Virus record (IMG/VR): IMGVR_UViG_3300035456_000001
Location: 1-29,888 of that record
Length of the DNA: 29,888 nucleotides
Strand: one strand, 5' to 3'
DNA from: a virus
Shown: positions 5,439-27,795 of the stretch, in pieces
How the letters are laid out: each line of letters begins with the position of its first letter
How positions within the stretch are numbered: the first letter of the stretch is position 1
The notes under the pieces: model-generated
What the model saw: the letters and a program-made list of their open reading frames with translations, nothing else
What the model was told of the DNA's origin: nothing
The model's database searches: none
Made by a program: the position numbers and the translations under genes

Positions 5439-5460
5439 TCAGAATGGTCAATTATTGACC
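5439..5460. promoter_or_regulatory. Dispersed palindrome site 1, upstream of radical SAM gene
   Basis: GGTCAATTATTGACC (5446-5460) is a perfect palindrome apart from its central base and extends by one more pair (T...A). It is preceded by the flank TCAGAAT. The site lies 20 bp upstream of the radical SAM ATG on the minus strand, in the short gap behind the 122-residue gene. Identical or near-identical sites occur around 12786, 22757, 25230 and 27774. An operator for a phage or host regulator is the likeliest reading. Confidence 0.6.
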
Positions 5461-5477
5461 AACCATCTTACGTATTA

Positions 5478-5846
5478 TTAAGCTAATCCTACTTCACCTT
5501 CTGCCTGAAAAGTTAGTGTTGTTCCTGCACTTGCACCACCAACAAGAAAGTCTGCTGCGTCAAGTCTTAACTGTCCATACCAGTCAACATAAGAATTAGC
5601 TGCTACATTTGAACCTGTTCCCATGAACTCTTTACCTGCCCCATTATCACCAGTTGTACTTATCCAAAGCGAGAATGTAGCAGCACTAGCAGTCTTGTTT
5701 ATAATCCTAATATGTCTTAGAATTATATACGAAGCAGTAGGAGTATAACCAGTTCCACTTCCTGCAGCTGCTGGGTTTAAAATGTTTGTAGTTGTAGTCG
5801 CTGAAAGAGCAACTGGACCAACTCTTAGTAAACGATTTGCTGCCAT
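5478..5846 (-). CDS. Small beta-rich virion-type protein, unknown
   Basis: This 122-residue protein is rich in Thr, Ser, Ala and Gly, with alternating hydrophobic residues (YIILRHIRIINKTASAAT, TLTFQAEGEVGLA) that suggest a compact beta-sandwich. No transmembrane segment or catalytic motif is visible. It lies in the tail region, two genes after the tail fibre, and has a clear AAAGGAG ribosome site before ATG 5846. A small tail- or capsid-associated structural protein is the best guess; comparable small beta proteins are common beside podovirus fibres. Function unproven. Confidence 0.6.
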   Translation of the reverse strand: MAANRLLRVGPVALSATTTTNILNPAAAGSGTGYTPTASYIILRHIRIINKTASAATFSLWISTTGDNGAGKEFMGTGSNVAANSYVDWYGQLRLDAADFLVGGASAGTTLTFQAEGEVGLA

Positions 5847-5865
5847 AATAAATCTCCTTTTAGTA

Positions 5866-6015
5866 TTACTTTATTTGACTTAAACTTACTAAAACAGTAA
5901 CAAGAACTTGCACTGCTAAAGCTAATCCAGCATTGCAAGCATTTTCAAAGCTATCGTACTGCACACCGCTGCGGTTTTTAATTTCTGCTAATATAAGTTG
6001 TTCTAAGTTTTCCAT
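5866..6015 (-). CDS. 49-residue membrane peptide, holin-like candidate
   Basis: A short gene occupies the gap between the tail fibre and the 122-residue gene. ATG 6015-6013 is preceded by TAGAGGA at good spacing, and the stop is at 5868-5866. The product begins MENLEQLILAEIKNRSG and ends with a hydrophobic segment of about 20 residues (AGLALAVQVLVTVLVSLSQ) followed by Ile-Lys. One probable membrane segment with a charged N-terminus is compatible with a small holin or an envelope-associated tail peptide. No lysozyme or endolysin lies beside it, so a lysis role is speculative. Confidence 0.55.
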   Translation of the reverse strand: MENLEQLILAEIKNRSGVQYDSFENACNAGLALAVQVLVTVLVSLSQIK

Positions 6016-6024
6016 AATATTCCT

Positions 6025-8397
6025 CTAATATCTCATTACGCCGACAATGCTGCCGCCCGTTGCGCCGCCTGAATATTGGTTGCCGTTTGAATCACAGCCT
6101 ATATGGCCGCCGTAAGCACTGCCGCTTGCATTTGTTGATGATGTCTGAATCCTTGCTGATGCATCCCATACGATTGCTTTTGTATTTGAGGGAATCATCT
6201 CCTTGCTTAACTGCCGTATGTATAGAGTTGTCGAAGCTGCAAAAGTCAAAGACGTTATCGGATTATCAAGATAAGTAATTTCATTCACCACCGGAAAATA
6301 ATTACCGCTACCGATTGAACTGCCATAAGTAAACATGGGTTGCTCTAAGTAAGCATAACAGCCTTTAGTGAATTTGAATCTTACTGTTATTGACGTAGGT
6401 GCTGCGCCCATTGTAGCGGTTACTTCCAACCATTGCCACGTTGAATTTCCTGTGTGCGCTATTGAGGTTGTAGTAGTTGAACCGTCATAAAGTTCAAGAT
6501 AACAAGCTGCTGCGGTATTACAGAAAACCCATGAGCCGAATGTTACTGCCCGCCCTGCGTATCTCTGGCGTAGAACTACGTCTGTGTTACCATTGCCATT
6601 CCACGTTAAATAATAAGTCGAAGCATCAGAAGTAATAGCATAAGCGGCATAGTAATTCCCTGCTTTGGTATTCGCACCTGACGGCTCACGAGATAACTTT
6701 AGACCTGATGTTTTTGTCCAGCCATCCATTGCAACCGTGTCTGCTGCTATACAGGCTGGCGTAGGCGTTAAAGCTGTCACATCATAGATAGTTAATGAAT
6801 CAAAGTAAACATGACCTGTCGCACTATTGTCAAATGATATATAAGTTGTCGTACCTGTCGGCACAAAATAAGCTGCGGGCGCAAGCGTCCAGTTGGTGTT
6901 ATTATAAGTTCCAGAACCAGAATCATAATACTGCACACCTTCTGCCGCTGTCCCGACTTTAACCCTCGGTCTGCCATTGGCATCGTTCTTATAATAGAAA
7001 TCAATCTGATATAAATGCCCTGCGACTGTTGTGATCGGGAAAGCATTTGTCGTTGCTACTGCATCAAAGCAATTTCCTGTTTGTCCACCAGCTACGATTG
7101 CCGGAGTTGCAGAGCTTCTTATTCCCGTGTCATAGCAAGATATTGAGTCAAAGAAGGCAGTTAAGGTATCAGCTCCGTCATTTATAAAATGAATATATGT
7201 CGTTGTACTCGTAGCAATAAAATAAATAGTATGTAATGTAAAAGAAGCATTGGAAAAATCAGTTGAATCATATATCTGATTGCCACCAAGTGAAGTTCCC
7301 ACCCACACCCTTAAAGCAGATGAAGTACCGTTTTTAGAATACCACGATAACTGGTATAAACCGTGATTGACTGTTGTTATTATTTGATAAGCATATTGGC
7401 TTGCTGCCCCACTATTTGTAATTCTAAGGCAATTTCCTGTCTGTCCACTTCCTACACTAGTAATAAGACCAAAGCCCGTAACTGTCCACCCCGTAGTTAC
7501 TGAATCAATACCTCCATTTGTAACCAGCGATCCTGCCGTAGTGTATCCTGCATTAGCTGAATCAAGAATTCCAAACACAGAGCCAGAAGCATCAAAACCA
7601 CCGAAGGGTGCAAGACTACCAGCAGAAATCAAAGCTGCATTAGTACCGTCAAGAGTAAACGATAGAGCAGCCGGAGCATTGCCAGGAGTCGGCGGGGTTG
7701 ATAAAATTCCGCCTGACCATATATCGAAACGGGAATTTGTAAGTTGATTAGCAATACTTACGCCTGACACGCTTGCCATATTTATAAGCTGTGAACCATC
7801 AACGGCAGGTATCTTTGCGTTAGCATCTAGCTGTAAAAGATTATTTGCTGTTGTCCCGACTGTATAGCCATCAACAATAGTGTTTCCACCTGCTCCCCAT
7901 TTTGTAACCATTCCTGGTGTAGGAGAAGCTACACCTGTGACAGGATAGGTCAAAACGTTACTACTTCCTACTATATTAAGTCCATCTTGACCATCTTGAC
8001 CATCCTCAAACATTGCTCCAACAAATACTCCTTGCGGGCCAGTATCACCTTTATCACCTTTATCACCTTTATCTCCTTTTATAGAAAGTCCATCATTACC
8101 ATCTTCTCCGTCTAGTCCAGAAACAAATTGTCCTTGGTCACCTTTACTACCTTTAGCTCCAGGAATTGGCATACCTTCTTCGCCATCAACTCCGTCTAAA
8201 GCAAAGCCAGCTGGTCCAGCTATACCAGTAGCTCCAGTATTACCTGTATCTCCTTTATCCCCCTTAGGTCCAACAGTAGCGGATAAAAGACTTGCTACTT
8301 GCTGAAAGAATATTCTCCATGTCGGAGTGGTAACAACACTCTTAGGATCTGTATTCAAGGGATCTTGAATCGGGGGAGTAGATAATAATTGACTCAT
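6025..8397 (-). CDS. Tail fibre with collagen-like repeats and duplicated beta-sandwich domains
   Basis: This 790-residue protein starts with a short N-terminal part (about 1-42, including TPTWRIFFQQVASLL), probably the virion attachment end. Collagen-like Gly-X-Y triplets fill about residues 43-123 (GPKGDKGDTG, GDKGDKGDKGDTG) with another short run at 132-139. From about 320 to 420 and 440 to 540 two similar jelly-roll domains follow, each starting GQTGNC and ending FDS plus a short strand, with the repeated TSTTTYI/TGTTTYI segment. A third beta-sandwich covers about 555-690. They resemble carbohydrate-binding modules, so a receptor-binding role is likely. The last 60 residues (GGHIGCDSNGNQYSGGATGG) resemble a fibre tip. 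The ATG abuts the hub stop directly. The downstream two-thirds uses more GC-rich codons than its neighbours, suggesting exchange of the receptor-binding part. Confidence 0.85.
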   Translation of the reverse strand: MSQLLSTPPIQDPLNTDPKSVVTTPTWRIFFQQVASLLSATVGPKGDKGDTGNTGATGIAGPAGFALDGVDGEEGMPIPGAKGSKGDQGQFVSGLDGEDGNDGLSIKGDKGDKGDKGDTGPQGVFVGAMFEDGQDGQDGLNIVGSSNVLTYPVTGVASPTPGMVTKWGAGGNTIVDGYTVGTTANNLLQLDANAKIPAVDGSQLINMASVSGVSIANQLTNSRFDIWSGGILSTPPTPGNAPAALSFTLDGTNAALISAGSLAPFGGFDASGSVFGILDSANAGYTTAGSLVTNGGIDSVTTGWTVTGFGLITSVGSGQTGNCLRITNSGAASQYAYQIITTVNHGLYQLSWYSKNGTSSALRVWVGTSLGGNQIYDSTDFSNASFTLHTIYFIATSTTTYIHFINDGADTLTAFFDSISCYDTGIRSSATPAIVAGGQTGNCFDAVATTNAFPITTVAGHLYQIDFYYKNDANGRPRVKVGTAAEGVQYYDSGSGTYNNTNWTLAPAAYFVPTGTTTYISFDNSATGHVYFDSLTIYDVTALTPTPACIAADTVAMDGWTKTSGLKLSREPSGANTKAGNYYAAYAITSDASTYYLTWNGNGNTDVVLRQRYAGRAVTFGSWVFCNTAAACYLELYDGSTTTTSIAHTGNSTWQWLEVTATMGAAPTSITVRFKFTKGCYAYLEQPMFTYGSSIGSGNYFPVVNEITYLDNPITSLTFAASTTLYIRQLSKEMIPSNTKAIVWDASARIQTSSTNASGSAYGGHIGCDSNGNQYSGGATGGSIVGVMRY

Positions 8398-12735: not shown

Positions 12736-13092
12736 CTATTCCTCAAAAAGACTCTTAGTCTTTTCCGTTTGTTTTGAATCAGAATGGTCAATAATTGACT
12801 CGGTTTCTGGCATCATATCTTCAGCCAGACCTTTACCTTCGTTATTAAAAGCTTCTTTAGCTTGTTCAGCTTTCCAAATTTCTTCGTGTCCTGGAAGTAA
12901 TCTCACCTTCCCTGGATGATCTTTCCAACCAGCTTTATCAAGTTCATCAAGTTGTTTGTCTGTCTTAACTAATATTCCTTCAGGACAAGTAATATGAAAT
13001 CTCCAAGCAGGAGTTTTCTCTTGTGAAGCTAAAGGAGCCTCAACTACTACTTCCGGCTTACCACTTCCAAGTAATTGATTATTTGAAGCCAT
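12736..13092 (-). CDS. Unknown 118-residue protein in head gene cluster
   Basis: I do not recognise this family. The middle WRFHITCPEGILVKTDKQLDELDKAGWKDHPGKVRLLPG (residues about 30-68) looks like a compact fold, followed by a charged, acidic tail (LAEDMMPETESIIDHSD...). The placement between a beta-helix-like protein and the gp4-like adaptor suggests a virion or assembly role. ATG 13092 is preceded by GGAGG. The reverse complement of a dispersed palindrome site (12779-12800) falls within the codons for SIIDHSDS near the C-terminus. Confidence 0.6.
   Translation of the reverse strand: MASNNQLLGSGKPEVVVEAPLASQEKTPAWRFHITCPEGILVKTDKQLDELDKAGWKDHPGKVRLLPGHEEIWKAEQAKEAFNNEGKGLAEDMMPETESIIDHSDSKQTEKTKSLFEE
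12779..12800. promoter_or_regulatory. Dispersed palindrome site 2, inside the 118-residue gene
   Basis: TCAGAAT followed by GGTCAATAATTGACT matches the site at 5439-5460 at nearly every base, including the flank, although it is within coding sequence. It lies about 50 bp upstream of the gp4-like gene's start on the minus strand. Confidence 0.5.
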
Positions 13093-16504: not shown

Positions 16505-16708
16505 TTAAGCCTTATCCATCATAAGACTTCTAATCACACTATGATCTCCATCACCAGCAGCCTTCATAGCATTCTTATACTTAGGTTTCTTTCCTGTAGC
16601 AAGTGAAAGACCAGTAGCATGCTGAGCAATGGCTGCTGCAGAACCTTTACTCTTTCCTTTCGACTTTAACTTCTTATAGAGAATATCTACTTTAGAACCT
16701 TTAGGCAT
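16505..16708 (-). CDS. Small basic protein between portal and scaffold
   Basis: This 67-residue, Lys-rich protein reads MPKGSKVDILYKKLKSKGKS, with the recurring phage motif KGxAAAIAQxxTGxSLxTG (KGSAAAIAQHATGLSLATG, about residues 22-40). Small proteins of this pattern are commonly encoded beside phage portal genes; their function is unknown to me. The ATG overlaps the portal stop by 8 bp, implying translational coupling with the portal. Confidence 0.65.
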   Translation of the reverse strand: MPKGSKVDILYKKLKSKGKSKGSAAAIAQHATGLSLATGKKPKYKNAMKAAGDGDHSVIRSLMMDKA

Positions 16709-19700
16709 TTTGATTATCTCCTTGTACTGGCATAGGTTGCTCAGCAGGCTGCGAGTTTTCTTGCGGAGCAGGTTGATTAAGTGCAGCTAACTTATCATGC
16801 TCTTCTTTTAAGACTTCTCCTAACAAACTTCTTACTTGCTCTTTACTTTCAGCAGCAAGCATTTCATTTTTAATTATAAGCTCCTTTAGCTTTTCTTGTT
16901 CTTGCTGTAACTTTAACTTAGCCTCTTCCAAACTTAACTGAGACTCTTGTAGTTTAATCTGTGCCTCTTGCATCGCCATCTGTTGCTGCGGGTTTGGAGG
17001 CGGAGGGGGCGGAGGCGCCGGAGCTTCTTTCCCCTCCTTTTTAGCCTCGTCTGCAGCCATCTTAGCCTTGATCTCAGGAGGAAGGAGAAAAGCGAGACGC
17101 TGCGCAACTTCTTCAGAACCAGGCCAATCCTGATACTTCGCATACAAGTCACCAATAACGCCGGCAGCTTGTGGGTAGTATTGTATAAACTCTTGCATTG
17201 ACTGTCTAGCTTCAGTACGTTGAGTAGTAAAGCTTGGACCGACAGTTACTGTAATGTCATAACTTCCTACTGACAAATCATTAATAATCTTCTCAGGGTT
17301 TTCTGGATCTTCAACATTTACAGCATCAAATCCATAACTTCCATCATCTAAACCAAGACGAATTACTCTTTCTGTATCTAAAATACCAGGAGCAATATCA
17401 ACCAAAATTCTTCCAAGATGCTCAATTGATCTTGAAAGATTATCAATAAAGGAGAATGTTCCAACATCACCTTCTTGTTTACGTTCTCTAATAGCTACAC
17501 CACTTCGTTCATTGCTGTGCATACCAAGACTTGCTCTTTGCAAGCCAATAGTATCACGCATTTCTTGATCTGTAGTAGCTGTGTTCTCACTCATAGCAGA
17601 AGAAGCTTGCGGAGGTGGTTCTCTGTGAGGCCAGCCTGGAGCTTCTTTATCTATCTCTACCAATATATAAGGATAATTCTTTCGTTGAAGATTATCCCAC
17701 TGAGTTTTATGCTCTCCAAGTTGTCTCGCAGTAATAAAGTAAGGTACTCTTGGTTGAAGAGCAGTTACTTCTGTATCAGTTGAATTATGAGTAGGCACCA
17801 TTCCTATACCAGCCAAATAAAGACTTGTTGGACTATCAACCGTAATACACTTTACTGGAACAGAAGGGACTTCTTGGATAGACTTAATACTATATCTCTT
17901 AGTACGTCTAGCCTCTTCTTCACGATTTCCAAGTCCTGCTAACTTACGAGAAAGTCTAAATACTGGTAAACGAGTAGTAAACGAAAACTGATACTCAATT
18001 TGTCTGTGTGAACTATTAGTAAGTTTATTAAAAGCTGTTCTATTACGAACACAATGCTTTGATTTGATACCAAGAGTTCTAAGTAACTCTGCAAAACCTT
18101 TTGCAAGTTCTAACTCCACAGTAGTAAAACTACAAGAACCATTTGTAGTACTAACAGAACCATCAGTATCCATTAAACCTTGCAATAATTGAAGTCGTTG
18201 TTCTTTTGAACCTCTAACATAGGAATAAGGAATATGTTTATTATTTAGTAAACCAAGTGCAGTAAATTTACTCCTTATTCCAAGAATTGTTTGCCGAATA
18301 CAATTTCCACTATCATTATGATAATCACTTAAATTACAACCAAACCACTTTAAGTGTGATGATAGTTCTAATGCATCATCTTTATGTTGAGTAAAGTTTG
18401 GTTCTGCAGAGGTACCATCTCCAAGCCATACTCCTAACACATAAGGAGGAATAGAATATTCTTGTTCTGGCAAATCTAAAGGTTCAGTTACGTTTATAAA
18501 GTGTTTTCCAGGAACTAACTGATCAGTAGTTATAGTTTTATTTTCCCAATTAAAGGTCTGTGATGTTCTTTTTCCTCGTTCTTCTACAGTCCAAAGATGT
18601 TTAATATCAGCTACTATAGTAGAATTATCGTCAAATGTAACCTCTAAACATTTTCTATTTTCAAAAACCTGACTAATATTAATAACAGTACAAACTTTAC
18701 CTTTATCATCAAAAACTTTCTGACCAACAAGAATATTTTCCATTGTTAGCCACCCAGATGGAGTAGGTATTAGTGTATTTAAGGAAAGAGCTCTCCAGTA
18801 ATTATACATTCTTTGAGGATCTTTACCATGACGAATAAGACCTTCAATAATTTTCTTCCCACCTACATTAATTTCCTTACCCCATACAGGAACTATTGGG
18901 ATATATTTCTTACCAACCCAAGTAGCTTCTTCAAGTACTTCATTACCAGAACACTTGTACCATTTAACTTCGTAAGTTTCTACTTCTCTATGTTTTACTT
19001 CTTCATCACCTTCTTTAAGTTCGTCTACAATTCGGTTATCTTTAAGTAAATAAATAGTCTTTTTAACTGGTTCTTTTACAAAGTACTCAGCAAGACGAAC
19101 TGTTTTCTCATTAGCCCAGCCTTCTGTATACAAAGCATCAGCAGAATTAAACGGCATTGGCTCTTTTTTATAAGTATCTTTATACTCATCACGACCCATT
19201 TCAGTAATTATAATACAATACTCAGCATCTGAACAATCATATTCCTGATGTCTTCCCCAATATACTGCCAGAGCATTTTCAATCTTTTCTATATAGGCTT
19301 CTTGATTAAATGAAGAATCAGAAGTATACTTAGTAACTACTCTCATTGCTCCATAGCCACAAGAAACAGCATGCTCAAAAGCATGATCAACAGCTATATC
19401 AGATTTTGATATCTGCTGCACATGTTTAATCCAACCAGAAAGCAACGTAGCTACTCTTTTATCAGCTTTGTCATCAACAGGTATTACTTTAATAGCTGGT
19501 CGGTTCATTCTCTGATCGCCAACTACCTGACTAATAAACGTAGGCATTTTATTTATTTCAAGACAAGGTCTTCCATTAGCTTCTCTATCAGCTTTAATCT
19601 CAGCAGGCCATTGTTTTCCTGGAACATATATAAACTCAAGATCATCAAAAGCAGCTTTACGATTATCACCATCTTCGTCTTGAGCTACTTTGAGTCTGTC

Positions 19701-19742
19701 TTTAAGCTCATCCAAAATCTTTTTGTGCTTAGCAGATAACAT
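16701..19742 (-). CDS. Portal protein, P22 type, interrupted by an intein
   Basis: The 1013-residue precursor becomes 677 residues after intein removal, close to P22 portal (725). The N-extein has the portal pattern: YVPGKQWPAEIKADREANGR, QVVGDQRMNRPAIKV, a run around SCGYGAMRVVT, and DPQRMYNYWR (309-317). The C-extein continues STDTEVTALQPRVPYF and later LQRASLGMHSNERSGVAI. Joining residue 317 to 654 gives NYWRSTDTE, the expected continuous family motif. The C-terminus has a poly-proline stretch (about residues 904-911) and a long coiled coil (QIKLQESQLSLEEAKLKLQQ), compatible with the C-terminal barrel of P22-like portals. The dodecameric portal is the DNA entry ring and terminase dock. The intein must splice for function. 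Confidence 0.9.
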   Translation of the reverse strand: MLSAKHKKILDELKDRLKVAQDEDGDNRKAAFDDLEFIYVPGKQWPAEIKADREANGRPCLEINKMPTFISQVVGDQRMNRPAIKVIPVDDKADKRVATLLSGWIKHVQQISKSDIAVDHAFEHAVSCGYGAMRVVTKYTSDSSFNQEAYIEKIENALAVYWGRHQEYDCSDAEYCIIITEMGRDEYKDTYKKEPMPFNSADALYTEGWANEKTVRLAEYFVKEPVKKTIYLLKDNRIVDELKEGDEEVKHREVETYEVKWYKCSGNEVLEEATWVGKKYIPIVPVWGKEINVGGKKIIEGLIRHGKDPQRMYNYWRALSLNTLIPTPSGWLTMENILVGQKVFDDKGKVCTVINISQVFENRKCLEVTFDDNSTIVADIKHLWTVEERGKRTSQTFNWENKTITTDQLVPGKHFINVTEPLDLPEQEYSIPPYVLGVWLGDGTSAEPNFTQHKDDALELSSHLKWFGCNLSDYHNDSGNCIRQTILGIRSKFTALGLLNNKHIPYSYVRGSKEQRLQLLQGLMDTDGSVSTTNGSCSFTTVELELAKGFAELLRTLGIKSKHCVRNRTAFNKLTNSSHRQIEYQFSFTTRLPVFRLSRKLAGLGNREEEARRTKRYSIKSIQEVPSVPVKCITVDSPTSLYLAGIGMVPTHNSTDTEVTALQPRVPYFITARQLGEHKTQWDNLQRKNYPYILVEIDKEAPGWPHREPPPQASSAMSENTATTDQEMRDTIGLQRASLGMHSNERSGVAIRERKQEGDVGTFSFIDNLSRSIEHLGRILVDIAPGILDTERVIRLGLDDGSYGFDAVNVEDPENPEKIINDLSVGSYDITVTVGPSFTTQRTEARQSMQEFIQYYPQAAGVIGDLYAKYQDWPGSEEVAQRLAFLLPPEIKAKMAADEAKKEGKEAPAPPPPPPPNPQQQMAMQEAQIKLQESQLSLEEAKLKLQQEQEKLKELIIKNEMLAAESKEQVRSLLGEVLKEEHDKLAALNQPAPQENSQPAEQPMPVQGDNQNA
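17784..18791 (-). mobile_element. Class 3-type intein with LAGLIDADG endonuclease in the portal gene
   Basis: The 336-residue insert spans precursor residues Ala318 to Asn653. It begins ALSLNTLIPTPSGWLTM (block A with Ala rather than Cys/Ser at position 1) and ends LYLAGIGMVPTHN, followed by Ser+1. The class 3 signature is complete: Trp384 in block B (KHLW), Cys632 in block F (VKCITVD) and Thr651 in block G (PTHN). Known class 3 inteins start splicing from the block F Cys instead of residue 1. A homing endonuclease of the LAGLIDADG type sits inside: YVLGVWLGDGTS (434-445) and LLQGLMDTDGSV (519-530), both with the acidic residue, so it could be active. The reading frame is open throughout. Confidence 0.9.
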
Positions 19743-19961
19743 TTATCTAATCCTCACACCAACTAAGTTATTGTGTCTTACTAAATCTAAAACAGATAAA
19801 CCTTCTGTAAGTTTATCAAACATTTCCTGTGTTACATTTTTATAGACTGACTTATTTCCACCACCAAAGATAACTATTAAATTACCAGAAGCCTCGTTAT
19901 ACGCTATAGACTTTACATTCTCATCATGAGAAAGTACTTGTGTCAGTACTACAGCATCCAC
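19743..19961 (-). CDS. KTSC-domain-like small protein
   Basis: This 72-residue protein follows the KTSC pattern: VKSIAYNEASGNLIVIFGGGNKSVYKNV then MFDKLTEGLSVLDLV (shown in parts, positions about 16-60), where a Ser-containing strand, a strand with F-x-G-G and a Y-x-x-V hairpin are followed by a helix. The final residues of the usual motif are diverged, so this is moderate. The function of KTSC domains is unknown, though they occur often in phage and mobile-element genes. The start is GTG at 19961, with GGTGA upstream, overlapping the terminase end by 13 bp; the product stops immediately before the portal ATG. Confidence 0.55.
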   Translation of the reverse strand: MDAVVLTQVLSHDENVKSIAYNEASGNLIVIFGGGNKSVYKNVTQEMFDKLTEGLSVLDLVRHNNLVGVRIR

Positions 19962-22441
19962 GCAGATTCACCATAACCATTACTATAATTTCTTTTAACT
20001 TCTTCTTGCTTCAGCTTAGCAAATACTTTCGTAGCACTGTTTGCAAAGTACTCAGTAAGTCCAAGTGCATCAGCAATATTAGGAGAAGCAATTCCTCTTG
20101 CTTTCATATCTTTCTTAGACTCTACAATTATTCCACCATGCTGATTAAATTTATACCTAACTGTAGCAAGTTCATTTGCAAGTTGGTTTCCTAAAGACTC
20201 TGTATCACCAACAAGTTTTACTTCTGGAAAACTATACTTACCAAGTATACAGTTATCTCTAACTCTTACCCAAAGTTCATCCCGTAGTTTATGAAATTTT
20301 TCTATGTTACTTGAAGAATTTGTTACATTTACTTGGTAAAGATTTCGTAAATTATGTTTTTCAAGCCAGTCTGCTACACCAGCACCAACACCTATAACAT
20401 CTATAGCTACACCACTAGCATTAAGTTCTTGGTAAGTTTGGTTTATAAAACCACCTAGGTCTATAGTATTAAGTTTTCTAAAAGTTTCCCAAGGATCAAT
20501 TCTAAGTCCTTGTCTTGGCAAAATTATAGATGCGTCGCTGCCATAGCGTGCCACGTCTACACCTAGATATAGTGGCTCATCTTCAGCAACATCAAAAGTG
20601 TTACCAATACACTGAATTGCTGCCCACAAAGGAATTAAAGTATTTTCATCTTGTAACGGAGGATTTCCTTCTACACGTATTCTAAAAATATTAGAATCTA
20701 TACCATACTTTCTAGCAAAATATTCTGGCATAGACTTATCTACATTACTAGATTTTCTTGAATCCCAATGAAGTCTATACCAATCCTGCTTAGCAGACTC
20801 ACTAAAATGTGTATCATAATAATAACCAGAATTACGAGTCATATTACCAATAAGCAAAACCTTATTGTCTGGCTGAGACATGGCGCCTTCAAGTGGTATA
20901 AAGGTTGGGTCAGGTATTCCAGAACTCTCGTCACATATGATTAAAAGATGGTCACCATGTAGCCCAGCCAGAGTTTCAGCTTGTTCATCTTTAGTTGCTC
21001 TAACAGAAGGAGAAATTAATCTCAACCACCACTCTTTACTAGCATCTTTTTGTATAACAGAATCCTTTAATATTCTAAATTCGTCTGCAACCAACGACTG
21101 TCTAAGCCACTTAGATATTTCAGCTAAAAATATATCTCGTAATTGTCTGTTTGTAGGAGCAGTAACTACAACTTTTGCATAAGGCCTTGTTACAAGAAAC
21201 CATAAAGCAATCCACGAAGCTACGGCATCTTTTCCTGTATTATGTGTTACTGTAAAATCACCAAGAACATATAAGCTATTCCCATCTAACTCAAATCCAT
21301 AATAGGTATCTTCAGCAAGTCTCTCAACCGAAAAACCAAAATGAAGGTTAGTTTTTAAATTTTCTAAAACCTTCTTTCTTTCTATTTGTGTAGGAATTAA
21401 ATGTGTATCACCAGAAATATAAATAACATTTTTATAACTCTTTTTTTGGATATTCTTATAAGTCCATGTGCCAATAGTCTTTTGTAATGTAGCCTTAAGA
21501 CCAACCGATTGGCACAAAAATAAAATGTCTTCTGCTACTTCATCAGATTTTTGAGTAATAGAAAATTGTCTAGAGTGTGCATCTTTAGAACCATCAGAAT
21601 CTATTAAGCCAGCAAGTAATTGCAAGCGTGCTTTCTTAGAATTAAATAAATACTCCTTTGGAATATGCTTATTACTATATAAATTATAGTATTTAAGTGC
21701 AGCTATAAAAGGATTTTGTAAGTTATTACTTTCTTGTACAGTAGAAAAGACTAGCCGATGCCTAATATCCTGATACGTAGACATTTTAAGATTATTAGCT
21801 TCTCCAAAAGCTTGCCATATGCCAATAACCTCTTTATCTATATTAGTTAATTCAGCTTGATTATGTGTTCCATCTCCAAGCCAAAGACCAAGAATATATG
21901 GAGGAATCTTTACATTATATTCAGGATATTCAATTCCTACTCTGTAACCAACAAACTTTTTTCTTTTATATTCAGGCCAAGATAAATAATCTCTGACAGA
22001 GACATTTATTTTATCACCTGCTTTATATCTAGCAGTTTTACCTAAATTACCACTACACACAAGTGAAAGAATATGACTCATGTTTACATCATAGTAAGTA
22101 TTATTATGATACTTAATACGTGCCATTTCTTCTGTACCAGAATAAAGTTTAAGAACTGTTCTAGGAGTATTATCATCTCCCATAATAAGATCTCCAACTT
22201 TAATATCTTGTACTGCTTTAAAACCATAAGGATACATATGTATAATGGCATTTCTTGCATGACAGCCGTGCCCAGAACGTACTGTTATACGCTTTTCCTT
22301 ACCAATAGCTTGTAATAACTCAATCTGTTGCTCAGTTGGCTCAGCTTTAATACACTCCTTCACGAACTGAAGAGGAGAATTCTTCCACTCCTTTAGTTTA
22401 TTAATAACTGATTTATGTATGTCAGGAGTATTAAGTTCCAC
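19949..22441 (-). CDS. Terminase large subunit, interrupted by an intein in the Walker A loop
   Basis: The 830-residue precursor becomes 488 residues after intein removal, the usual TerL length. The Walker A motif is split: RSGHG (55-59) then TGKDA after the intein, together giving SGHGTGKD. Walker B is LLIICDES (499-506, catalytic E505). The nuclease domain shows LGVDVARYGSDASI (D629) and, near the C-terminus, SPNIADALGLTEYFA (D791). The protein pumps DNA into the prohead through the portal and cuts the concatemer. Upstream are an HNH-like protein and the small subunit; downstream the KTSC-like gene overlaps by 13 bp. Splicing is essential, because the intein removes the ATP-binding loop's continuity. 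Confidence 0.93.
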   Translation of the reverse strand: MELNTPDIHKSVINKLKEWKNSPLQFVKECIKAEPTEQQIELLQAIGKEKRITVRSGHGCHARNAIIHMYPYGFKAVQDIKVGDLIMGDDNTPRTVLKLYSGTEEMARIKYHNNTYYDVNMSHILSLVCSGNLGKTARYKAGDKINVSVRDYLSWPEYKRKKFVGYRVGIEYPEYNVKIPPYILGLWLGDGTHNQAELTNIDKEVIGIWQAFGEANNLKMSTYQDIRHRLVFSTVQESNNLQNPFIAALKYYNLYSNKHIPKEYLFNSKKARLQLLAGLIDSDGSKDAHSRQFSITQKSDEVAEDILFLCQSVGLKATLQKTIGTWTYKNIQKKSYKNVIYISGDTHLIPTQIERKKVLENLKTNLHFGFSVERLAEDTYYGFELDGNSLYVLGDFTVTHNTGKDAVASWIALWFLVTRPYAKVVVTAPTNRQLRDIFLAEISKWLRQSLVADEFRILKDSVIQKDASKEWWLRLISPSVRATKDEQAETLAGLHGDHLLIICDESSGIPDPTFIPLEGAMSQPDNKVLLIGNMTRNSGYYYDTHFSESAKQDWYRLHWDSRKSSNVDKSMPEYFARKYGIDSNIFRIRVEGNPPLQDENTLIPLWAAIQCIGNTFDVAEDEPLYLGVDVARYGSDASIILPRQGLRIDPWETFRKLNTIDLGGFINQTYQELNASGVAIDVIGVGAGVADWLEKHNLRNLYQVNVTNSSSNIEKFHKLRDELWVRVRDNCILGKYSFPEVKLVGDTESLGNQLANELATVRYKFNQHGGIIVESKKDMKARGIASPNIADALGLTEYFANSATKVFAKLKQEEVKRNYSNGYGESAWML
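21239..22264 (-). mobile_element. Class 1-type intein with LAGLIDADG endonuclease in terminase Walker A
   Basis: The 342-residue intein spans precursor residues Cys60 to Asn401. It starts CHARNAIIHMYPYGF (nucleophilic Cys1) and ends YVLGDFTVTHN followed by Thr+1, so ordinary class 1 splicing is expected. Block B shows VNMSHILSL without the class 3 Trp, and block F (YYGFELD) has no Cys, in contrast with the portal intein. LAGLIDADG motifs are YILGLWLGDGTH (182-193) and LLAGLIDSDGSK (275-286). Insertion between Gly59 and Thr402 lies in the most conserved DNA of the gene, as is usual for homing sites. Confidence 0.9.
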
Positions 22442-22673
22442 TAAAGCGCAACCAAATAAGTATTCGTTCTAAGTTAGTTAGTTTATGATAAACTCTTGTA
22501 CTTCTCGCTGCTTGCTTATTTAACCTTGTTATTTCTTTATGACACTTAATACAAATAGTAACCGTGATCTCAGGATCATAAACAATATGATGTCTTTCTA
22601 ACTTAGCCCTCTTTCCACACTTTTTACACTTAGGTAATTTTAAAAAAGCTGCTCTCTGTTTACTTGTAGTCAT
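22431..22673 (-). CDS. HNH-type protein upstream of terminase large subunit
   Basis: This 80-residue protein has CKKCG (C16, C19), ERHHIVYD (H28, H29) and ICIKCHKEI (C41, C44, H45), the zinc-ribbon and HH...CxxCH layout of small HNH nucleases. Small HNH proteins beside phage terminase genes (for example HK97 gp74) help packaging by cutting or stimulating terminase. The last conserved His of the HNH core is not evident, so nuclease activity is uncertain. The C-terminus (NLERILIWLRF) is helical. It overlaps the terminase start by 11 bp, indicating coupling. Confidence 0.7.
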   Translation of the reverse strand: MTTSKQRAAFLKLPKCKKCGKRAKLERHHIVYDPEITVTICIKCHKEITRLNKQAARSTRVYHKLTNLERILIWLRFSGT

Positions 22674-22741: not shown

Positions 22742-22939
22742 TCAATTTGCCAGAAAGGTCAATTGTTGACCATTTGACTGGTACGCGCGGGTTAGAATCT
22801 GCCCGTGTATCAGGGCGTGGATGTTAGTTATGTTTCCTTTTGGTGAAAGTTCTGCAATCAGCCCGCCGAGCAGTAAGCCTTCATTCGTGGGCTTCATGAT
22901 TGGGATTACTCCAAGCTGTGGTTGGTTGTCAGGTATCAT
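22742..22939 (-). CDS. Unknown 65-residue protein after the small terminase
   Basis: I do not recognise this protein (MIPDNQPQLGVIPIMKPTNE..., ending GQQLTFLAN). It has a hydrophobic GLLLGGLIAEL segment but is too short to call a membrane protein with confidence. Its start directly abuts the stop of the terminase small subunit. Codon use here is less AT-rich than in the structural genes. A dispersed palindrome site lies in its last codons. Confidence 0.5.
   Translation of the reverse strand: MIPDNQPQLGVIPIMKPTNEGLLLGGLIAELSPKGNITNIHALIHGQILTRAYQSNGQQLTFLAN
22751..22771. promoter_or_regulatory. Dispersed palindrome site 3, upstream of HNH/terminase
   Basis: CCAGAAA followed by GGTCAATTGTTGACC (22757-22771) matches the family at 5439 with one base different in the spacer. 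It overlaps the end of the 65-residue gene and lies about 80 bp upstream of the HNH gene on the minus strand. Confidence 0.5.
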
Positions 22940-23425
22940 CTAAAAATCCTGTTCGTCTATCTCGTTTATTGAAGTCACTTGACCTTCATCATTCGTGCTG
23001 TCTGTATACTCCGCATCAGTGATCGAGAGGTCAGGGAGTTGTGTTCCAGCAGCCAGTGCTTGCTCCTGTTTCTCCATATAAATTAAGTGAGCAACAAGTC
23101 CTTTAATCTCACTCGGCTTGTTCTCAATTACTAATTCCTTATCCTTTAAAATCTTATAACTCGCCACCAAGTCTTTCAGTGGAGCCTCTTCAATCTTTCC
23201 AGGCGTAATAGCTTCCAAAATTCTTGCTTGCAAAGCAGTTAGTTGCAGGGACTGAATCGACCGGTATTGAAGCAGCAACCCTTGCTCCTTTTGAATCTCT
23301 GCAATACGAGCCCTGAGGGTCGGCGGAGTAATGCTCAACTCTCCTGCCACAGAAGGAATACTCTCTCCTCTCATAAGGAGATCCAACGCCGCTTCAATAT
23401 CAAACTCTTTCTGTGGTCTACCCAT
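22940..23425 (-). CDS. Terminase small subunit (HTH DNA-binding)
   Basis: This 161-residue protein starts MGRPQKEFDIEAALDLLMRG and carries a helix-turn-helix at about residues 11-45 (IEAALDLLMRGESIPSVAGE, then ITPPTLRARIAEIQ), the pattern of phage small terminases that recognise the packaging site. The middle forms helices (LQLTALQARILEAI; LVASYKILKDKELVIENK) suited for oligomer ring formation. The C-terminus is acidic (SITDAEYTDSTNDEGQ). Position before TerL supports the call. A general HTH regulator is the alternative. AAAGGAAG precedes ATG 23425. Confidence 0.7.
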   Translation of the reverse strand: MGRPQKEFDIEAALDLLMRGESIPSVAGELSITPPTLRARIAEIQKEQGLLLQYRSIQSLQLTALQARILEAITPGKIEEAPLKDLVASYKILKDKELVIENKPSEIKGLVAHLIYMEKQEQALAAGTQLPDLSITDAEYTDSTNDEGQVTSINEIDEQDF

Positions 23426-24420: not shown

Positions 24421-24443
24421 CGCCAGATTTTACGAAAATCGCT

Positions 24444-24457: not shown

Positions 24458-24579
24458 GATTTGCTCCATTTATTTTATGACCGTCGGTCATTGTTTTCGC
24501 CAGAAATGCAATGATTCCGCATGGTTGCAGACTTTCTTTTCGTCAGTGATTATTTGGCACAATGTCTGCATACATATAA

Positions 24580-24593
24580 AAACAATAATGACA
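24580..24593. promoter_or_regulatory. Degenerate palindrome site, copy 5 (reverse)
   Basis: The core CAATAATG (24583-24590) is the complement of CATTATTG; the outer arms match only in part. It lies about 90 bp before the first rightward gene. Confidence 0.35.
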
Positions 24594-24651
24594 CAATGTT
24601 CTTTGACAATTAAATATTGAGATTCATGCCTTCCATAATGTCCGCCTTCAT

Positions 24652-24665
24652 TAACATTATTGAAA
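24652..24665. promoter_or_regulatory. Degenerate palindrome site, copy 6, next to the ribosome site
   Basis: The core CATTATTG (24655-24662) lies 8 bp ahead of the GGAGG site of the first rightward gene, a position from which a bound protein would block the transcript. Confidence 0.35.
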
Positions 24666-24683
24666 ATAATGGAGGATTTAATC

Positions 24684-25163
24684 ATGGCAAAAAGAATAAT
24701 TAAATGGACTTTGGATAATACCACGCTGAACATGCACAAATACGTTGGCACGGTTAACGGCAAGGAAAACGCAACAGAGCTTATTTGCGGATTTGAATTG
24801 GTTGAACTGTTCCCTGACTTCACAACAATGGCTGATATTCAAAAGCAGGTTATTGTTTACGGAATCAAACAAAAACTGATGGACAAGGGGGCGAGCGAAA
24901 TTGCCGACACTGAAGGTAAAATCGTATCCGCAAAAAATAAATTCGCAGACCTCGTTGCGGGTAAATGGTCAGGTGATCGAACAAATGCAACAGGCGCAGC
25001 CGAAGATAAACGTGCATTTTCTGAATTAAAAACACTCACAAAAGAAGTCAGCATGAACGGTTTAATGATGAAAAGGCTCATGTATCCCGCAACATTCACT
25101 GACGATGATGAAACAAAACTTCAGGAATTTATTAACCGCGCAGCCAAGCAGGGAAGGAAATAG
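24684..25163 (+). CDS. Conserved phage-type protein, unknown function (first rightward gene)
   Basis: The ATG at 24684 is chosen because GGAGG lies eight bases upstream; the earlier in-frame ATGs have no such site. The 159-residue product starts MAKRIIKWTLDN, has a FELVELFPDF segment and then the recurring phage pattern QKQVIVYGIKQKLMDKGA (about residues 54-71), followed by a KNKFADLVAGKWSGDR segment. I recognise this layout (domain with yGikQkl and a later G-x-W) from small phage proteins of unknown function. The C-terminal part is helical and charged. No enzymatic motif is seen. Being the first gene after the operator cluster, it may be early-expressed and regulated by those sites. Confidence 0.7.
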   Translation: MAKRIIKWTLDNTTLNMHKYVGTVNGKENATELICGFELVELFPDFTTMADIQKQVIVYGIKQKLMDKGASEIADTEGKIVSAKNKFADLVAGKWSGDRTNATGAAEDKRAFSELKTLTKEVSMNGLMMKRLMYPATFTDDDETKLQEFINRAAKQGRK

Positions 25164-25222
25164 TCAGGAAGTAACTAAACACGAAGGTGGACATTGTAGA
25201 GGGCAGGAATCGTATTTAATTG

Positions 25223-25244
25223 TCAGAATAGTCAATAATTGACC
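25223..25244. promoter_or_regulatory. Dispersed palindrome site 4, upstream of a promoter
   Basis: TCAGAAT followed by AGTCAATAATTGACC (25230-25244), one base off the consensus. It ends 20 bp before the -35 box of the promoter at 25265. Confidence 0.6.
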
Positions 25245-25264
25245 ACGTTTCTTAAATATAACTA

Positions 25265-25293
25265 TTGACAACTGGTTAATAGTGTGATAAGAT
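25265..25293 (+). promoter_or_regulatory. Rightward sigma70-type promoter 1
   Basis: -35 TTGACA (25265-25270), 17-bp spacer starting ACTG and ending GTGA, -10 TAAGAT (25288-25293). It drives the 26-residue peptide gene and possibly the genes beyond. Confidence 0.65.
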
Positions 25294-25318
25294 ATTTAAT
25301 AAACGAAAGGAGACTGCC

Positions 25319-25399
25319 ATGCAAAAATTCTGGTTTGTTATATACAGCTTTATAATAATATACAGCGGGCTTTGTATTTACTTAATATGGTTTAGGTAA
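25319..25399 (+). CDS. 26-residue membrane peptide
   Basis: A small ORF follows the promoter at 25265 with a good ribosome site (AAAGGAGA) before its ATG. The product starts MQKFWFVIYSFIIIYSGLC and ends YLIWFR; it is almost entirely hydrophobic and could span the membrane once. Promoter plus ribosome site make it believable as a real gene, but a leader peptide or chance ORF remains possible. Confidence 0.5.
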   Translation: MQKFWFVIYSFIIIYSGLCIYLIWFR

Positions 25400-25415
25400 G
25401 GTAAATATTAGTAAT

Positions 25416-25450
25416 CGTAAATCGTCAAACGTATATTGTATATCGTAAAT
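25416..25450 (+). repeat. Five tandem 7-bp iterons (consensus CGTAWAT)
   Basis: The units read CGTAAAT, CGTCAAA, CGTATAT, TGTATAT, CGTAAAT without gaps. Short tandem direct repeats next to an AT-rich tract are a hallmark of initiator-binding iterons at replication origins. A matching inverted array lies at 25646-25666. Confidence 0.6.
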
Positions 25451-25477
25451 TCAATAATAGTGTATAATTCGATTAAC

Positions 25478-25490
25478 GATTACCGATTAC
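25478..25490. repeat. 13-bp inverted repeat, left arm (GATTACCGATTAC)
   Basis: Exact reverse complement of 25606-25618. The arms enclose about 115 bp including the AT-rich tract, so the region could form a cruciform or present two initiator sites. Confidence 0.7.
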
Positions 25491-25542
25491 TGCTAAGGGG
25501 CTTCAATCGTCTTAGACTAGGGCTCTTTCTCTCCCTCTCAGT

Positions 25543-25600
25543 AATATATATATACTTATATATATTATATAAGAAAAGAATATTTATTTTAAGAAATTAA
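25543..25600. other. AT-rich tract, candidate DNA unwinding element
   Basis: Alternating TA runs (ATATATATATAC, then TTATATATATTATATAAG) followed by an A/T-only stretch lie in the middle of the inverted repeats and iterons. Easy melting fits an origin; no initiator gene is present in the window to prove it. Confidence 0.45.
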
Positions 25601-25605
25601 ATAGT

Positions 25606-25618
25606 GTAATCGGTAATC
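25606..25618. repeat. 13-bp inverted repeat, right arm (GTAATCGGTAATC)
   Basis: Exact reverse complement of 25478-25490. Confidence 0.7.
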
Positions 25619-25645
25619 ATAAACCGGAAAATAACTCAGAATGTA

Positions 25646-25666
25646 ATTTACAATATACGATATACG
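25646..25666 (-). repeat. Three tandem 7-bp iterons, inverted array
   Basis: On the minus strand the units read CGTATAT, CGTATAT, TGTAAAT, the same consensus as the array at 25416-25450 but facing it. An extra CGATAAAC flanks it. Confidence 0.55.
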
Positions 25667-25724
25667 GTTTATCGGATTGCATAAATTACACTATTAAATA
25701 AATTGTCAAACTATACAAAACTAA

Positions 25725-25753
25725 TTGACAACTGCATAAATGTATGATATTAT
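25725..25753 (+). promoter_or_regulatory. Rightward sigma70-type promoter 2
   Basis: -35 TTGACA (25725-25730), 17-bp spacer starting ACTG and ending ATGA, -10 TATTAT (25748-25753). The transcript would begin just ahead of the ribosome site of the gene at 25780. Confidence 0.65.
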
Positions 25754-25779
25754 TGGATAAAATAATAAAAGGAGTATTT

Positions 25780-26193
25780 ATGCAAAAGGGAGTGATTCAG
25801 AACGAAGACTGTGTGATTAAAGTCCTGACGGAAGGTAGAGAGTTTGTGCTGGTTTGCGAAGATGAAAAAGATGCACACTCTAAGCGAGTATCTTTATATA
25901 ATGCAAGAAGAAGACTATCCGCCGTTGACCAGAGAAAAATAGTTATTCACAAGGAAAGAATGAAGGATAACTGGGTAGTAAGAGTTTATAGAGGAAGTCC
26001 TAATATTATGGAAGTAGTTAATGGAGAGCTTGTACCTTATGAAGAAATAGCCACGTTGTCTGAAACTGGAAATAAACTACTTTCTGAAATGTTAAGTAAA
26101 GGAATGAATGAAGAAGAAGTATTTGACATACTTAAAGAAAGAGGTGAAGCAGAGAAGTCTATTAGAGAAGAAATAAGGAAACTGAGTATATGA
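25780..26193 (+). CDS. Unknown 137-residue early-region protein
   Basis: The ATG at 25780 is preferred over the one at 25744 because the promoter -10 box overlaps the latter and AAAGGAG precedes the former. The N-terminal half has several strands (VIKVLTEGREFVLVCEDEKD; RKIVIHKERMKDNWVVRVYR) and contains a basic NARRRLSAVDQRK stretch; the C-terminal half is a charged helical region (MLSKGMNEEEVFDILKERGE). No family recognised. It overlaps the following HNH-AP2 gene by 4 bp (ATGA), indicating translational coupling. Confidence 0.6.
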   Translation: MQKGVIQNEDCVIKVLTEGREFVLVCEDEKDAHSKRVSLYNARRRLSAVDQRKIVIHKERMKDNWVVRVYRGSPNIMEVVNGELVPYEEIATLSETGNKLLSEMLSKGMNEEEVFDILKERGEAEKSIREEIRKLSI

Positions 26194-26753
26194 GGCTTAT
26201 TAGGTGTCTTGGTAAGAAGTCAGCAATGGTAGATGATGCTGACTATGATAGACTAAAGAAGTTCTTCTGGAAAGCTGTTCCTGCTGGGAAGACTTTTTAT
26301 GCTATGAGAAAGCCCACTGGCTCTAAGTGGTATAATTGGAATATGTACTGGGATATTATGGGTAAGCCAGAAAAGGGTTTTGTAGTAGATCATAAGAATG
26401 GGTATGGACTTGATTACCAGAGAAATAATTTAAGTATTATAACAACAAGACAAAACGCTCAGAATAAACATAGTAAAAAGACTTCAAAATATTGCGGAGT
26501 TTCTTTAGATAAATCTAACAAGTGGCGGGCACAAATTACTGTATTAAATGAGGTTGTTTATCTTGGTACTTACGAAACAGAAGAAGAAGCGTACGAAGTT
26601 TATAAAAGTAAAGCTGAATTGTTTTCAGAGGTATTAGATAATACTCCGTTACCAATTAAAACAGAAGAAGAAACAGACATAGAAAGACAGAAAGTTCTTA
26701 TGAGAAAAGATAAATGGACTGAGGAACAAATAAAGGAGTATTTTAATGATTAA
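26190..26753 (+). CDS. HNH endonuclease with AP2 DNA-binding domain (homing-type)
   Basis: This 187-residue protein combines an HNH nuclease (VVDHKNGYGLDYQRNNLSII, residues about 65-84, then TTRQNAQNK) with a C-terminal AP2-like domain (YCGVSLDKSNKWRAQITV, then YLGTYETEEEAYEVYKS; about 101-140). Phage HNH-AP2 proteins are free-standing homing endonucleases that spread themselves into related phages. Residues past 145 form a charged tail (TEEETDIERQKVLMRKDKWT) that may belong to a second helix pair. It starts inside the end of the previous gene and is followed by a small gene overlapping its last codons, so it is embedded in an operon. Confidence 0.88.
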   Translation: MRLIRCLGKKSAMVDDADYDRLKKFFWKAVPAGKTFYAMRKPTGSKWYNWNMYWDIMGKPEKGFVVDHKNGYGLDYQRNNLSIITTRQNAQNKHSKKTSKYCGVSLDKSNKWRAQITVLNEVVYLGTYETEEEAYEVYKSKAELFSEVLDNTPLPIKTEEETDIERQKVLMRKDKWTEEQIKEYFND

Positions 26754-26925
26754 AATCCCCGCCCTCAGCATCTTACAAAACGGTATGCAGCAAGTTAGCA
26801 AAACTAAATGGCTGCCGATGTATACAGACTTGCTGACCAAAAGTACGTTTTTAGTACAACTACATAAAGGTGAGACAGTTGATAAAGCTGTAGGAAGAGT
26901 TAGGGAAAGGTTTAATATTAAATAA
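26746..26925 (+). CDS. Unknown 59-residue protein after the HNH-AP2 gene
   Basis: ATG 26746 overlaps the end of the HNH-AP2 gene, with AAAGGAG 6-12 bp upstream. The product reads MIKIPALSILQNGMQQVSKT and then KWLPMYTDLLTKSTFLVQLH, ending in a basic helix (KAVGRVRERFNIK). No family recognised. Open frame, ribosome site and tight packing support it as real. Confidence 0.55.
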   Translation: MIKIPALSILQNGMQQVSKTKWLPMYTDLLTKSTFLVQLHKGETVDKAVGRVRERFNIK

Positions 26926-26943
26926 GAAAAGGAGGAAAAGTAA

Positions 26944-27333
26944 ATGACTAAAGAAAAATTTAAAGAGTATGAAAAGGTTTGTAAGGATTTGTGGAAAGAA
27001 CTTTCAAAAAAGAAAAATTTAGAGAAGTCTAAAGATCAGATTAATAGGGATATTTATAGCTATAATAACCTGTGTCCTGCCTGTGAAATAGCTAGTAGAA
27101 TATCACAACGTAAGTCTTTTTTCTGTATGTTTTGTCCCATAGATGTTTGGAGAAAGAAAGCGTTAGCTGAGCCAGACGTAGATGCTGTCTGCCTGAGAAG
27201 TAATAATGCTTATGGTGTTTGGGCAAACCTAAGCTGTCTTGATGTAAACAGTACACCAGCACAACGTCTTGCAGCTGCACTAAAGATCTCTAAGTATAAA
27301 TGGACTTACTTAAAAGAATACAAAAATATTTAA
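26944..27333 (+). CDS. Small zinc-binding-type protein, unknown function
   Basis: This 129-residue protein has two CxxC pairs, CPAC (C44, C47) and CMFC (C61, C64), in the arrangement of a zinc ribbon, followed by PIDVWR. The N-terminus is a Lys-rich helix (KFKEYEKVCKDLWKELSKKK). The C-terminal part is helical (PAQRLAAALKISKYKWTYLK). The two-CxxC layout with a following P-x-x-x-W is familiar from small phage early proteins without known role. AGGAGG precedes ATG 26944. Confidence 0.6.
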   Translation: MTKEKFKEYEKVCKDLWKELSKKKNLEKSKDQINRDIYSYNNLCPACEIASRISQRKSFFCMFCPIDVWRKKALAEPDVDAVCLRSNNAYGVWANLSCLDVNSTPAQRLAAALKISKYKWTYLKEYKNI

Positions 27334-27344
27334 AGGAGGAGGTT

Positions 27345-27512
27345 ATGTTAGTAGATTTCACAATTAGTATAGAGGTAGATGATGATTACTTAGATGACGG
27401 AGTAAAGGAATCTGAGCTTGAGACTAAACTTAATAAAGTTTTATCAGACCTTGATGAAGTTATAGGTACGTCAGAGTTTAACTTTAACGATTCATCTTGG
27501 GAGTATTTATAA
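27345..27512 (+). CDS. Unknown 55-residue acidic protein
   Basis: ATG 27345 is supported by AAAGGAGG just upstream, in preference to the longer frame at 27300 that overlaps the preceding gene. The product is very acidic (DFTISIEVDDDYLDDGVKES; LDEVIGTSEFNFNDSS). It resembles small acidic early proteins of phages, which often mimic DNA to bind host or defence proteins, but nothing specific is seen. Confidence 0.5.
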   Translation: MLVDFTISIEVDDDYLDDGVKESELETKLNKVLSDLDEVIGTSEFNFNDSSWEYL

Positions 27513-27524
27513 AGGAGGAATAGT

Positions 27525-27770
27525 ATGGCTAAAAGTAAGATTAAATACGTGCATACTAAGTGGGGATTAAGAAGACTGTTTTGTATGTGTGATAGTGAAA
27601 GAGCAGTAGACCACTATGACTTTGTGTCGGAGAAAGTCTCCCCGAAGTCCATCCTCCTGTCAAGTGTAACTATGCTTAATGAATGTGAAAAGTGTAATAA
27701 ATACTTCACTTGGGTATTTAAATTCAGCGAAGACGCAAAGAAATGGAAGAAGTTGATTGGGATTAAGTAA
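27525..27770 (+). CDS. Small zinc-binding-type protein, unknown
   Basis: This 81-residue protein has a CMC motif (C20, C22) and a CEKC motif (C54, C57), so a zinc site is likely. The N-terminus is basic (KSKIKYVHTKWGLRRLF), and the end is Lys- and Trp-containing (FKFSEDAKKWKKLIGIK). No family recognised. AAAGGAGG precedes ATG 27525. Confidence 0.55.
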   Translation: MAKSKIKYVHTKWGLRRLFCMCDSERAVDHYDFVSEKVSPKSILLSSVTMLNECEKCNKYFTWVFKFSEDAKKWKKLIGIK

Positions 27771-27773
27771 CGT

Positions 27774-27795
27774 GGTCAATAATTGACCTTTCTTG
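27774..27795. promoter_or_regulatory. Dispersed palindrome site 5, upstream of promoter 3
   Basis: GGTCAATAATTGACC (27774-27788) is a perfect match to the consensus palindrome, directly after the stop of the 81-residue gene. Here the flank (TTTCTTGG) lies on the right, so the site points the opposite way to the others. It ends about 37 bp before the -35 box at 27826. Confidence 0.6.

Follow-up and report, generated by a model that had tools for sequence, protein, structure and literature searches.

Dispersed odd-centred palindromes in related phages, predicted loading sites for a ParB-methyltransferase fusion protein

Introduction

The proteins of the ParABS partition and Noc-NBS systems combine a ParB_N fold, GxRR and ENxxR boxes, and a helix-turn-helix (HTH) whose helix residues set the sequence of the DNA site (PMC7383237, PMC8429893). 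In ParB, contacts with parS involve G170-K171-S172-R173 as well as N178 and T179, and a role of residue 173 in specificity has been proven (PMC7383237). Both parS and NBS are even palindromes of 16 bp, and chromosomal ParB carries a dimerisation domain at its C terminus and has ParA as its partner.

The OB operators of KorB are numerous odd-centred palindromes dispersed over one replicon. KorB of RK2 is a ParB-family NTP clamp with a role beyond partition (PMC11790492); it works on a plasmid together with KorA and the ParA-like IncC, silences promoters, and has no methyltransferase.

Dispersed repeats have also been described in phages. The stoperators of Cluster A lack symmetry, and their orientation follows transcription (PMC4351075). 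The Cluster O mycobacteriophages carry 17-bp repeats, TGTTCGG-NNN-CCGAACA, of which there are 34 in Corndog and whose function was reported as unknown (PMC4351075). These repeats have dyad symmetry and a 3-bp spacer, are spread genome-wide over intergenic and coding sequence independently of promoters and orientation, and occur in phages that encode a ParB-like protein (Corndog gp90, YungJamal gp91). On the protein side, a 2025 survey of the ParB-CTPase fold describes, in the passages searched, phage-enriched ParB-N6N4 methyltransferase fusions and suggests an anti-defence role for them (PMC12704722).

The phages studied here have an array that resembles the Cluster O repeats in each of these properties, but differs in its half-site (GGTCAA rather than TGTTCGG), in its lower density, and in that the Cluster O hosts are mycobacterial. 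They also encode a protein with the domain combination given in the searched passages of the survey, ParB_N and N6_N4_Mtase in one chain. Those passages report no DNA sites for such fusions, whereas arrays are found here, and a literature search, which covered sources other than subscription journals and preprints, found nothing linking phage ParB fusions to dispersed sites. The site family, its architecture and conservation, its association with the fusion gene, and the covariation of half-site and recognition helix were computed directly.

Results

Six sites in the window

In the window, that is, the whole 29,888-base virus record analyzed, the structural genes are on the minus strand, and the plus strand holds a smaller gene set. 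The first-pass annotation had noted five palindromes, at 5446, 12786, 22757, 25230, and 27774, all of which are present, with GGTCAATAATTGACC-like cores (Table 1). The flanks it described (TCAGAAT beside 5446, 12786, and 25230; CCAGAAA beside 22757) match the sequence exactly, and 27774 has a flank too (TTTCTTG). Its placement of the sites also stands: 5446 lies 20 bp ahead of the radical SAM ATG, 25230 and 27774 lie upstream of TTGACA-17-TAAGAT promoters, and 12786 and 22757 lie in coding sequence. Two points are revised. The match at 813, taken for an isolated weaker one, carries the full element and is a sixth member of the family. The motif is also longer than the 22 bp proposed, as the flank is one of a pair, with MAG (A/C-A-G) bordering the core on the opposite side, giving about 30 bp. 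The suggested comparison with shuffled sequence places the family clearly above chance: 13 strand matches with at most three mismatches were found in the window against 0.67 +/- 0.92 expected from dinucleotide shuffles, a number reached by none of 100 shuffles.

Table 1. Sites and genes of the window discussed in the text
Feature	Element	Position	Strand	Location or remark	Profile score
Site 1	CAG-N6-CGTCAATTTTTGACC-TTT-CTG	804..833	+	inside ORF 1-2163 (-)	28.7
Site 2	AAG-N6-GGTCAATAATTGACC-ATT-CTG	5440..5469	-	between ORF 5478-5846 and radical SAM gene 4355-5425	38.5
Site 3	CAG-N6-AGTCAATTATTGACC-ATT-CTG	12780..12809	-	near 3' end of ORF 12736-13092	33.9
Site 4	CAG-N6-GGTCAACAATTGACC-TTT-CTG	22751..22780	-	3' end of ORF 22742-22939, just past small terminase gene region	39.7
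Site 5	AAG-N6-GGTCAATTATTGACT-ATT-CTG	25224..25253	-	intergenic, 20 bp upstream of promoter 25265-25293	32.0
Site 6	AAG-N6-GGTCAATAATTGACC-TTT-CTT	27765..27794	+	intergenic, 37 bp upstream of promoter 27826-27854	38.9
Probable small terminase gene		22940..23425	-	used to find related phages with the same sites	
Portal gene		16701..19742	-	appears intein-bearing	
Large terminase gene		19949..22441	-	appears intein-bearing	
Radical SAM/B12-binding-like gene		4355..5425	-	structural arm	
Acetyltransferase-like gene		3912..4358	-	structural arm	
HNH endonuclease gene		26190..26753	+	PHROG 99, 1e-27	
HNH-like ORF		22431..22673	-	near terminase genes	

Architecture and conservation of the element

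Related loci were collected by a DNA pattern scan of viral contigs and through relatives of the probable small terminase (26 loci, 55-79% identical). Most of the loci reached contain the same element of about 30 bp, MAG-N6/7-RGTCAA-NNN-TTGACC-WTT-CTK, in 6-16 copies per phage, mainly in short gaps between genes and in both orientations; in many relatives one site lies 8-13 bp past the stop of the small terminase gene. On 1.02 Mb of related loci the profile matches 308 strand-specific windows (216 positions), compared with 4 in reversed sequence. The family is thus conserved in related phages, a property on which the first-pass annotation had made it depend.

The core is a 15-bp palindrome, and asymmetry is confined to the spacing of the outer flanks. 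Full MAG at a spacing of 6 or 7 is present in 103 of 131 dereplicated sites, and a second lineage (G016 and G017) is symmetric, with MAG-N3 to the left of the core and N3-CTK to its right. Across the 131 sites no pair of arm positions covaries, and the outer pair is often mismatched, A:C and C:C being common. The lack of covariation together with the frequent outer A:C mismatches argues for a protein-DNA site; judged by these sequence features, the palindrome is a DNA operator and not an RNA hairpin.

Position, spacing, and host

The sites are intergenic in 102 of 137 cases, where only about 7% of the sequence is non-coding according to a simple gene caller. A typical site lies in a gap inside one operon, with a stop 4-14 bp before it and the next start 15-40 bp beyond it, and orientation relative to the genes is unbiased (61 same, 50 opposite, p = 0.34). 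Such placement and orientation fit neither promoters nor stoperators. TTGACC as a promoter -35 box was considered and ruled out, as there is no -10 box at 17 bp and orientation is mixed.

Gaps between sites are on average more even than under random placement, with a CV of 0.31-0.82 that is below 1 in 18 of 18 genomes; the evenness reaches P < 0.02 in eight of these and is not significant in ten. For instance, the 13 sites of one phage (G063) are on average 3.9 kb apart, with a CV of 0.33. Because coverage is even and genome-wide, it suggests that the whole phage molecule is the target.

A 7.7-Mb Desulfobacterales metagenome-assembled genome (MAG) contains four strict matches, all of them on a single 56.6-kb phage contig with homology to the window, and the other 7.6 Mb of the bin contain no strict site. 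The motif is thus the phage's and not that of the MAG genome, and the bin membership of the phage contig suggests a Desulfobacterales host. A host regulon was ruled out by this restriction of strict sites to the phage contig, and a scan of 84,980 genomes, with 12 stretches against about 7.5 expected by chance (a rough estimate), was also counted against it. Separately, three Bacteroidetes MAG contigs (L112, L113, and L121) have in common a site-like element, AGAAAGGTCAANNNTTGACC, with near-identical flanks, which is either a chance match or a separate repeat.

Phages with the sites encode a ParB-methyltransferase fusion

Eight near-complete phages with the motif have few protein families in common. 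One of these is a protein of 442 residues composed of ParB_N, an HTH, and an N6/N4 methyltransferase; others are a PD-(D/E)XK nuclease, a Sak4-type ATPase, and a UDG-DNA polymerase. The ParB_N-HTH-methyltransferase fusion is present in 13 of the 36 records searched; among records of 40 kb or more, G024 and G030 alone lack it, and every related phage with clustered sites on a contig of at least 40 kb has it. G024, with a related small terminase, has neither fusion nor sites; G030 has no fusion and one doubtful site. The 29.9-kb window lacks the fusion gene as well as the adjoining polymerase, nuclease, and ATPase genes and is evidently incomplete; the phage's own fusion gene presumably belongs to the replication module, which is missing from the window.

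Phages without the fusion served as the control of the palindrome scan, reversed sequence being meaningless for palindromes. Among contigs of at least 12 kb found through a related DNA polymerase and having no fusion, 0 of 14 have a palindrome with p < 1e-6, compared with 14 of 39 contigs having the fusion (Mann-Whitney p = 0.0013); the same scan found none in T7 and phiKMV. Some fusion phages (G059, G064, and G069) have no significant palindrome, and no odd-centred palindrome array was found in Vibrio ABTNL-3 and Microcystis Mel-JY34, whose fusions are distant and have a poorly aligned HTH. The fusion gene itself is preceded in several phages by a site, about 20-45 bp upstream, a position compatible with autoregulation. 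A ParA ATPase (PF13614) was found in 0 of 20 genomes, with 14 of 14 controls positive, and a ParABS partition system is thereby ruled out.

Fold and motifs of the fusion protein

Residues 1-115 of the fusion have profile matches to Noc, Spo0J, and ParB, and residues 200-430 to methyltransferases; the ParB_N domain, identified in the relatives of the window, is Pfam PF02195. The AlphaFold2 model, built from a 53-sequence alignment, has a mean pLDDT of 91, places the HTH at helices 136-143 and 147-162, and has a Foldseek probability of 1.0 to Noc/ParB and to the beta-class methyltransferases CcrM, M1.HpyAVI, MboIIA, and M.BceJIV. Box II (GGRR/GERR) and Box III (E[EA]NxxR) are conserved among the fusions. 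The C-terminal dimerisation domain of ParB is replaced by N6_N4_Mtase, and the fusion to a methyltransferase is kept among proteins down to about 28% identity. About half of the site-bearing proteins have the canonical motif IV, DPPY/F, and the rest have DPIY, DPLY, DPQY, DPEY, or DFPY, so methyltransferase activity is uncertain.

The half-site follows the recognition helix

Further phages were gathered by the fusion protein alone and scanned de novo for any over-represented inverted repeat. The same 5-3-5 geometry was recovered with different half-sites: CGTAA-3-TTACG (G044, n = 14, p = 2e-29; G043, n = 9, p = 2e-21), TACAC-3-GTGTA (G063, n = 11, p = 4e-25), TTCAA-3-TTGAA in four phages (G060, G061, G062, and G066), CTCAA-3-TTGAG (G067, n = 9), and TCCCA-3-TGGGA in Desulfofustis phage LS06-2018-MD01 (OP947158, n = 6). 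The pattern CGTAANNNTTACG is absent from the 28 other fusion phages searched.

The half-site varies with the residue that follows V/I in the helix. With proteins more than 70% identical removed, a hydrophobic residue goes with the GTCAA half-site in 19 of 19 proteins, and R, E, S, T, or N with another half-site in 9 of 9; Fisher's test gives p = 1.4e-7 for this set, which is still partly non-independent owing to relatedness. The CGTAA and TACAC proteins form two nested switches, their nearest relatives outside the helix being GTCAA proteins, to which they are 50-55% identical there; two GTCAA proteins can be as little as 35% identical. Extra loci fetched once the rule was seen have mostly S or T at the key position. 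None of those with S or T has GTCAA, three have TTCAA, and every palindrome with p < 1e-6 in the extra loci is odd-centred. In an alignment made by eye, the K/R/E position of the fusion helix seems to correspond to residue 173 of Caulobacter ParB.

Four new fusion phages (L441, L420, L410, and L419) have more odd-centred palindromes, namely TGTTC-7-GAACA, ATGCA-3-TGCAT, GTTCA-5-TGAAC, and TGAAA-1-TTTCA, which are possible further entries of the helix code.

Discussion

We propose, with a probability of roughly 65%, that the ParB_N-HTH-methyltransferase fusion binds the palindromes and that they serve to load it as a clamp. Taken singly, the predicted identity of the binder is the firm part, the fusion very probably being the protein in question, and clamp loading is the probable use of the sites. 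Whole-genome methylation of the phage DNA as the purpose is put forward tentatively.

The palindromes would be parS-like loading sites for a phage ParB NTP-clamp joined to a beta-class N6/N4 DNA methyltransferase. The HTH of a fusion dimer would recognise the 6-3-6 palindrome, and a region adjacent to the HTH may read the outer MAG/CTK. By analogy with ParB and KorB, nucleotide binding would close the clamp on DNA, and the clamp would then slide off the site; these steps are predicted from the conserved boxes and from what the two proteins are known to do. The nucleotide may not be CTP, since, in the searched passages of the survey, a bacterial methyltransferase fusion bound ATP (PMC12704722). 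Sites every few kb would load the enzyme across the whole phage genome, and phage rather than host DNA would be methylated or otherwise marked. Delivery of the methyltransferase is the weakest step because motif IV deviates in about half of the proteins. The likeness to known ParB systems also has its limits: the sites are odd-centred whereas parS and NBS are even, and the fusion has a methyltransferase and no ParA where chromosomal ParB has a dimerisation domain and a ParA partner.

The array may serve something other than methylation, as the Cluster O phages combine an array with a ParB-like protein that, in contrast to the fusion, has no methyltransferase match. YungJamal was used as the Cluster O representative in place of Corndog. 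BLAST placed the Cluster O repeat at about 37-39 places in each of the eight best-matching mycobacteriophage records, and the Cluster O phage KJ829260 (L396) encodes a ParB-like protein with an HTH-like stretch. The Cluster O ParB-like protein is a candidate binder of the 17-bp repeats, and by analogy the parallel supports the idea of a ParB array and leaves the payload open. More speculatively, in many ParA-less phages a ParB clamp might be a delivery vehicle with evenly spaced, genome-wide loading sites and an exchangeable C-terminal payload. If so, the loading sites, and not the enzyme's own short recognition sequence, would direct modification to self DNA, an aiming principle different from that of ordinary restriction-modification enzymes, and the repeats of Cluster O would represent the same system carrying a different payload. 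A few helix residues would predict the DNA site of dozens of ParB-methyltransferase fusions, whose binding, loading, and methylation become directly testable. A protein family catalogued in 2025 and a kind of repeat described in Cluster O in 2015, both previously without a function, would gain a testable job.

The drift of motif IV also bears on a neighbouring reading, in which a dispersed ParB clamp condenses, bridges, or protects the DNA or helps to replicate or package it, methylation being secondary. Regular spacing over the early and late arms, the 20 genomes searched without ParA, and the methyltransferase-free Cluster O protein agree with such genome organisation, but the persistence of the fusion to about 28% identity suggests that the methyltransferase matters, and we hold this reading to be unlikely, if worth keeping in mind. 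The two window sites just upstream of strong promoters and those ahead of the fusion gene in several phages would suit long-range transcriptional silencing or timing by the fusion, as by KorB on RK2 (PMC11790492). Such a role is rather improbable, however, as orientation is unbiased and most sites lie within operons, where the gaps leave no room for a promoter; the authors who described the comparable repeats of Cluster O considered control of initiation unlikely (PMC4351075).

Association by itself cannot name the binder, since the replication module travels en bloc, and another, unrecognised phage protein co-occurring with the fusion might occupy the sites. There is little room for it: the half-site tracks the helix residues of the fusion, including the switches nested among close relatives, and the remaining families common to all eight genomes are the nuclease, the Sak4-type ATPase, and the DNA polymerase.

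The first-pass annotation had likened the sites to the stoperators of phage L5. Its view of them as dispersed binding sites is supported, for a DNA-binding protein that the phage encodes but the window lacks; the repressor part is not supported. The many dispersed sites with a fixed flank do recall an L5-like system, but they are palindromic and not oriented with transcription, lie mostly in gaps too short for a promoter, and obey a helix code indicative of ParB, and stoperators are highly improbable. No cognate repressor is found in the window, and in the relatives annotation covered the conserved families. Finally, an RNA hairpin, terminator, or processing signal is scarcely credible, for although a 6-bp stem and a 3-nt loop between genes could fold and one site scored as terminator-like, the lack of arm covariation rules out a hairpin or terminator, and there are mismatched outer pairs, no T-run, both orientations, and some sites within coding sequence.

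Returning from the palindromes to the genes around them, the portal and large terminase of the window, at about 1013 and 830 aa compared with 657 and 492 aa in a relative (G002 contig 511), both appear to contain inteins, with intein-like insert sequence. The radical SAM-like and acetyltransferase-like genes (families 33 and 34) are adjacent in G010 and lie close together in G002. HNH genes, two of which are found in the window, also occur in relatives and are likely of the homing type.
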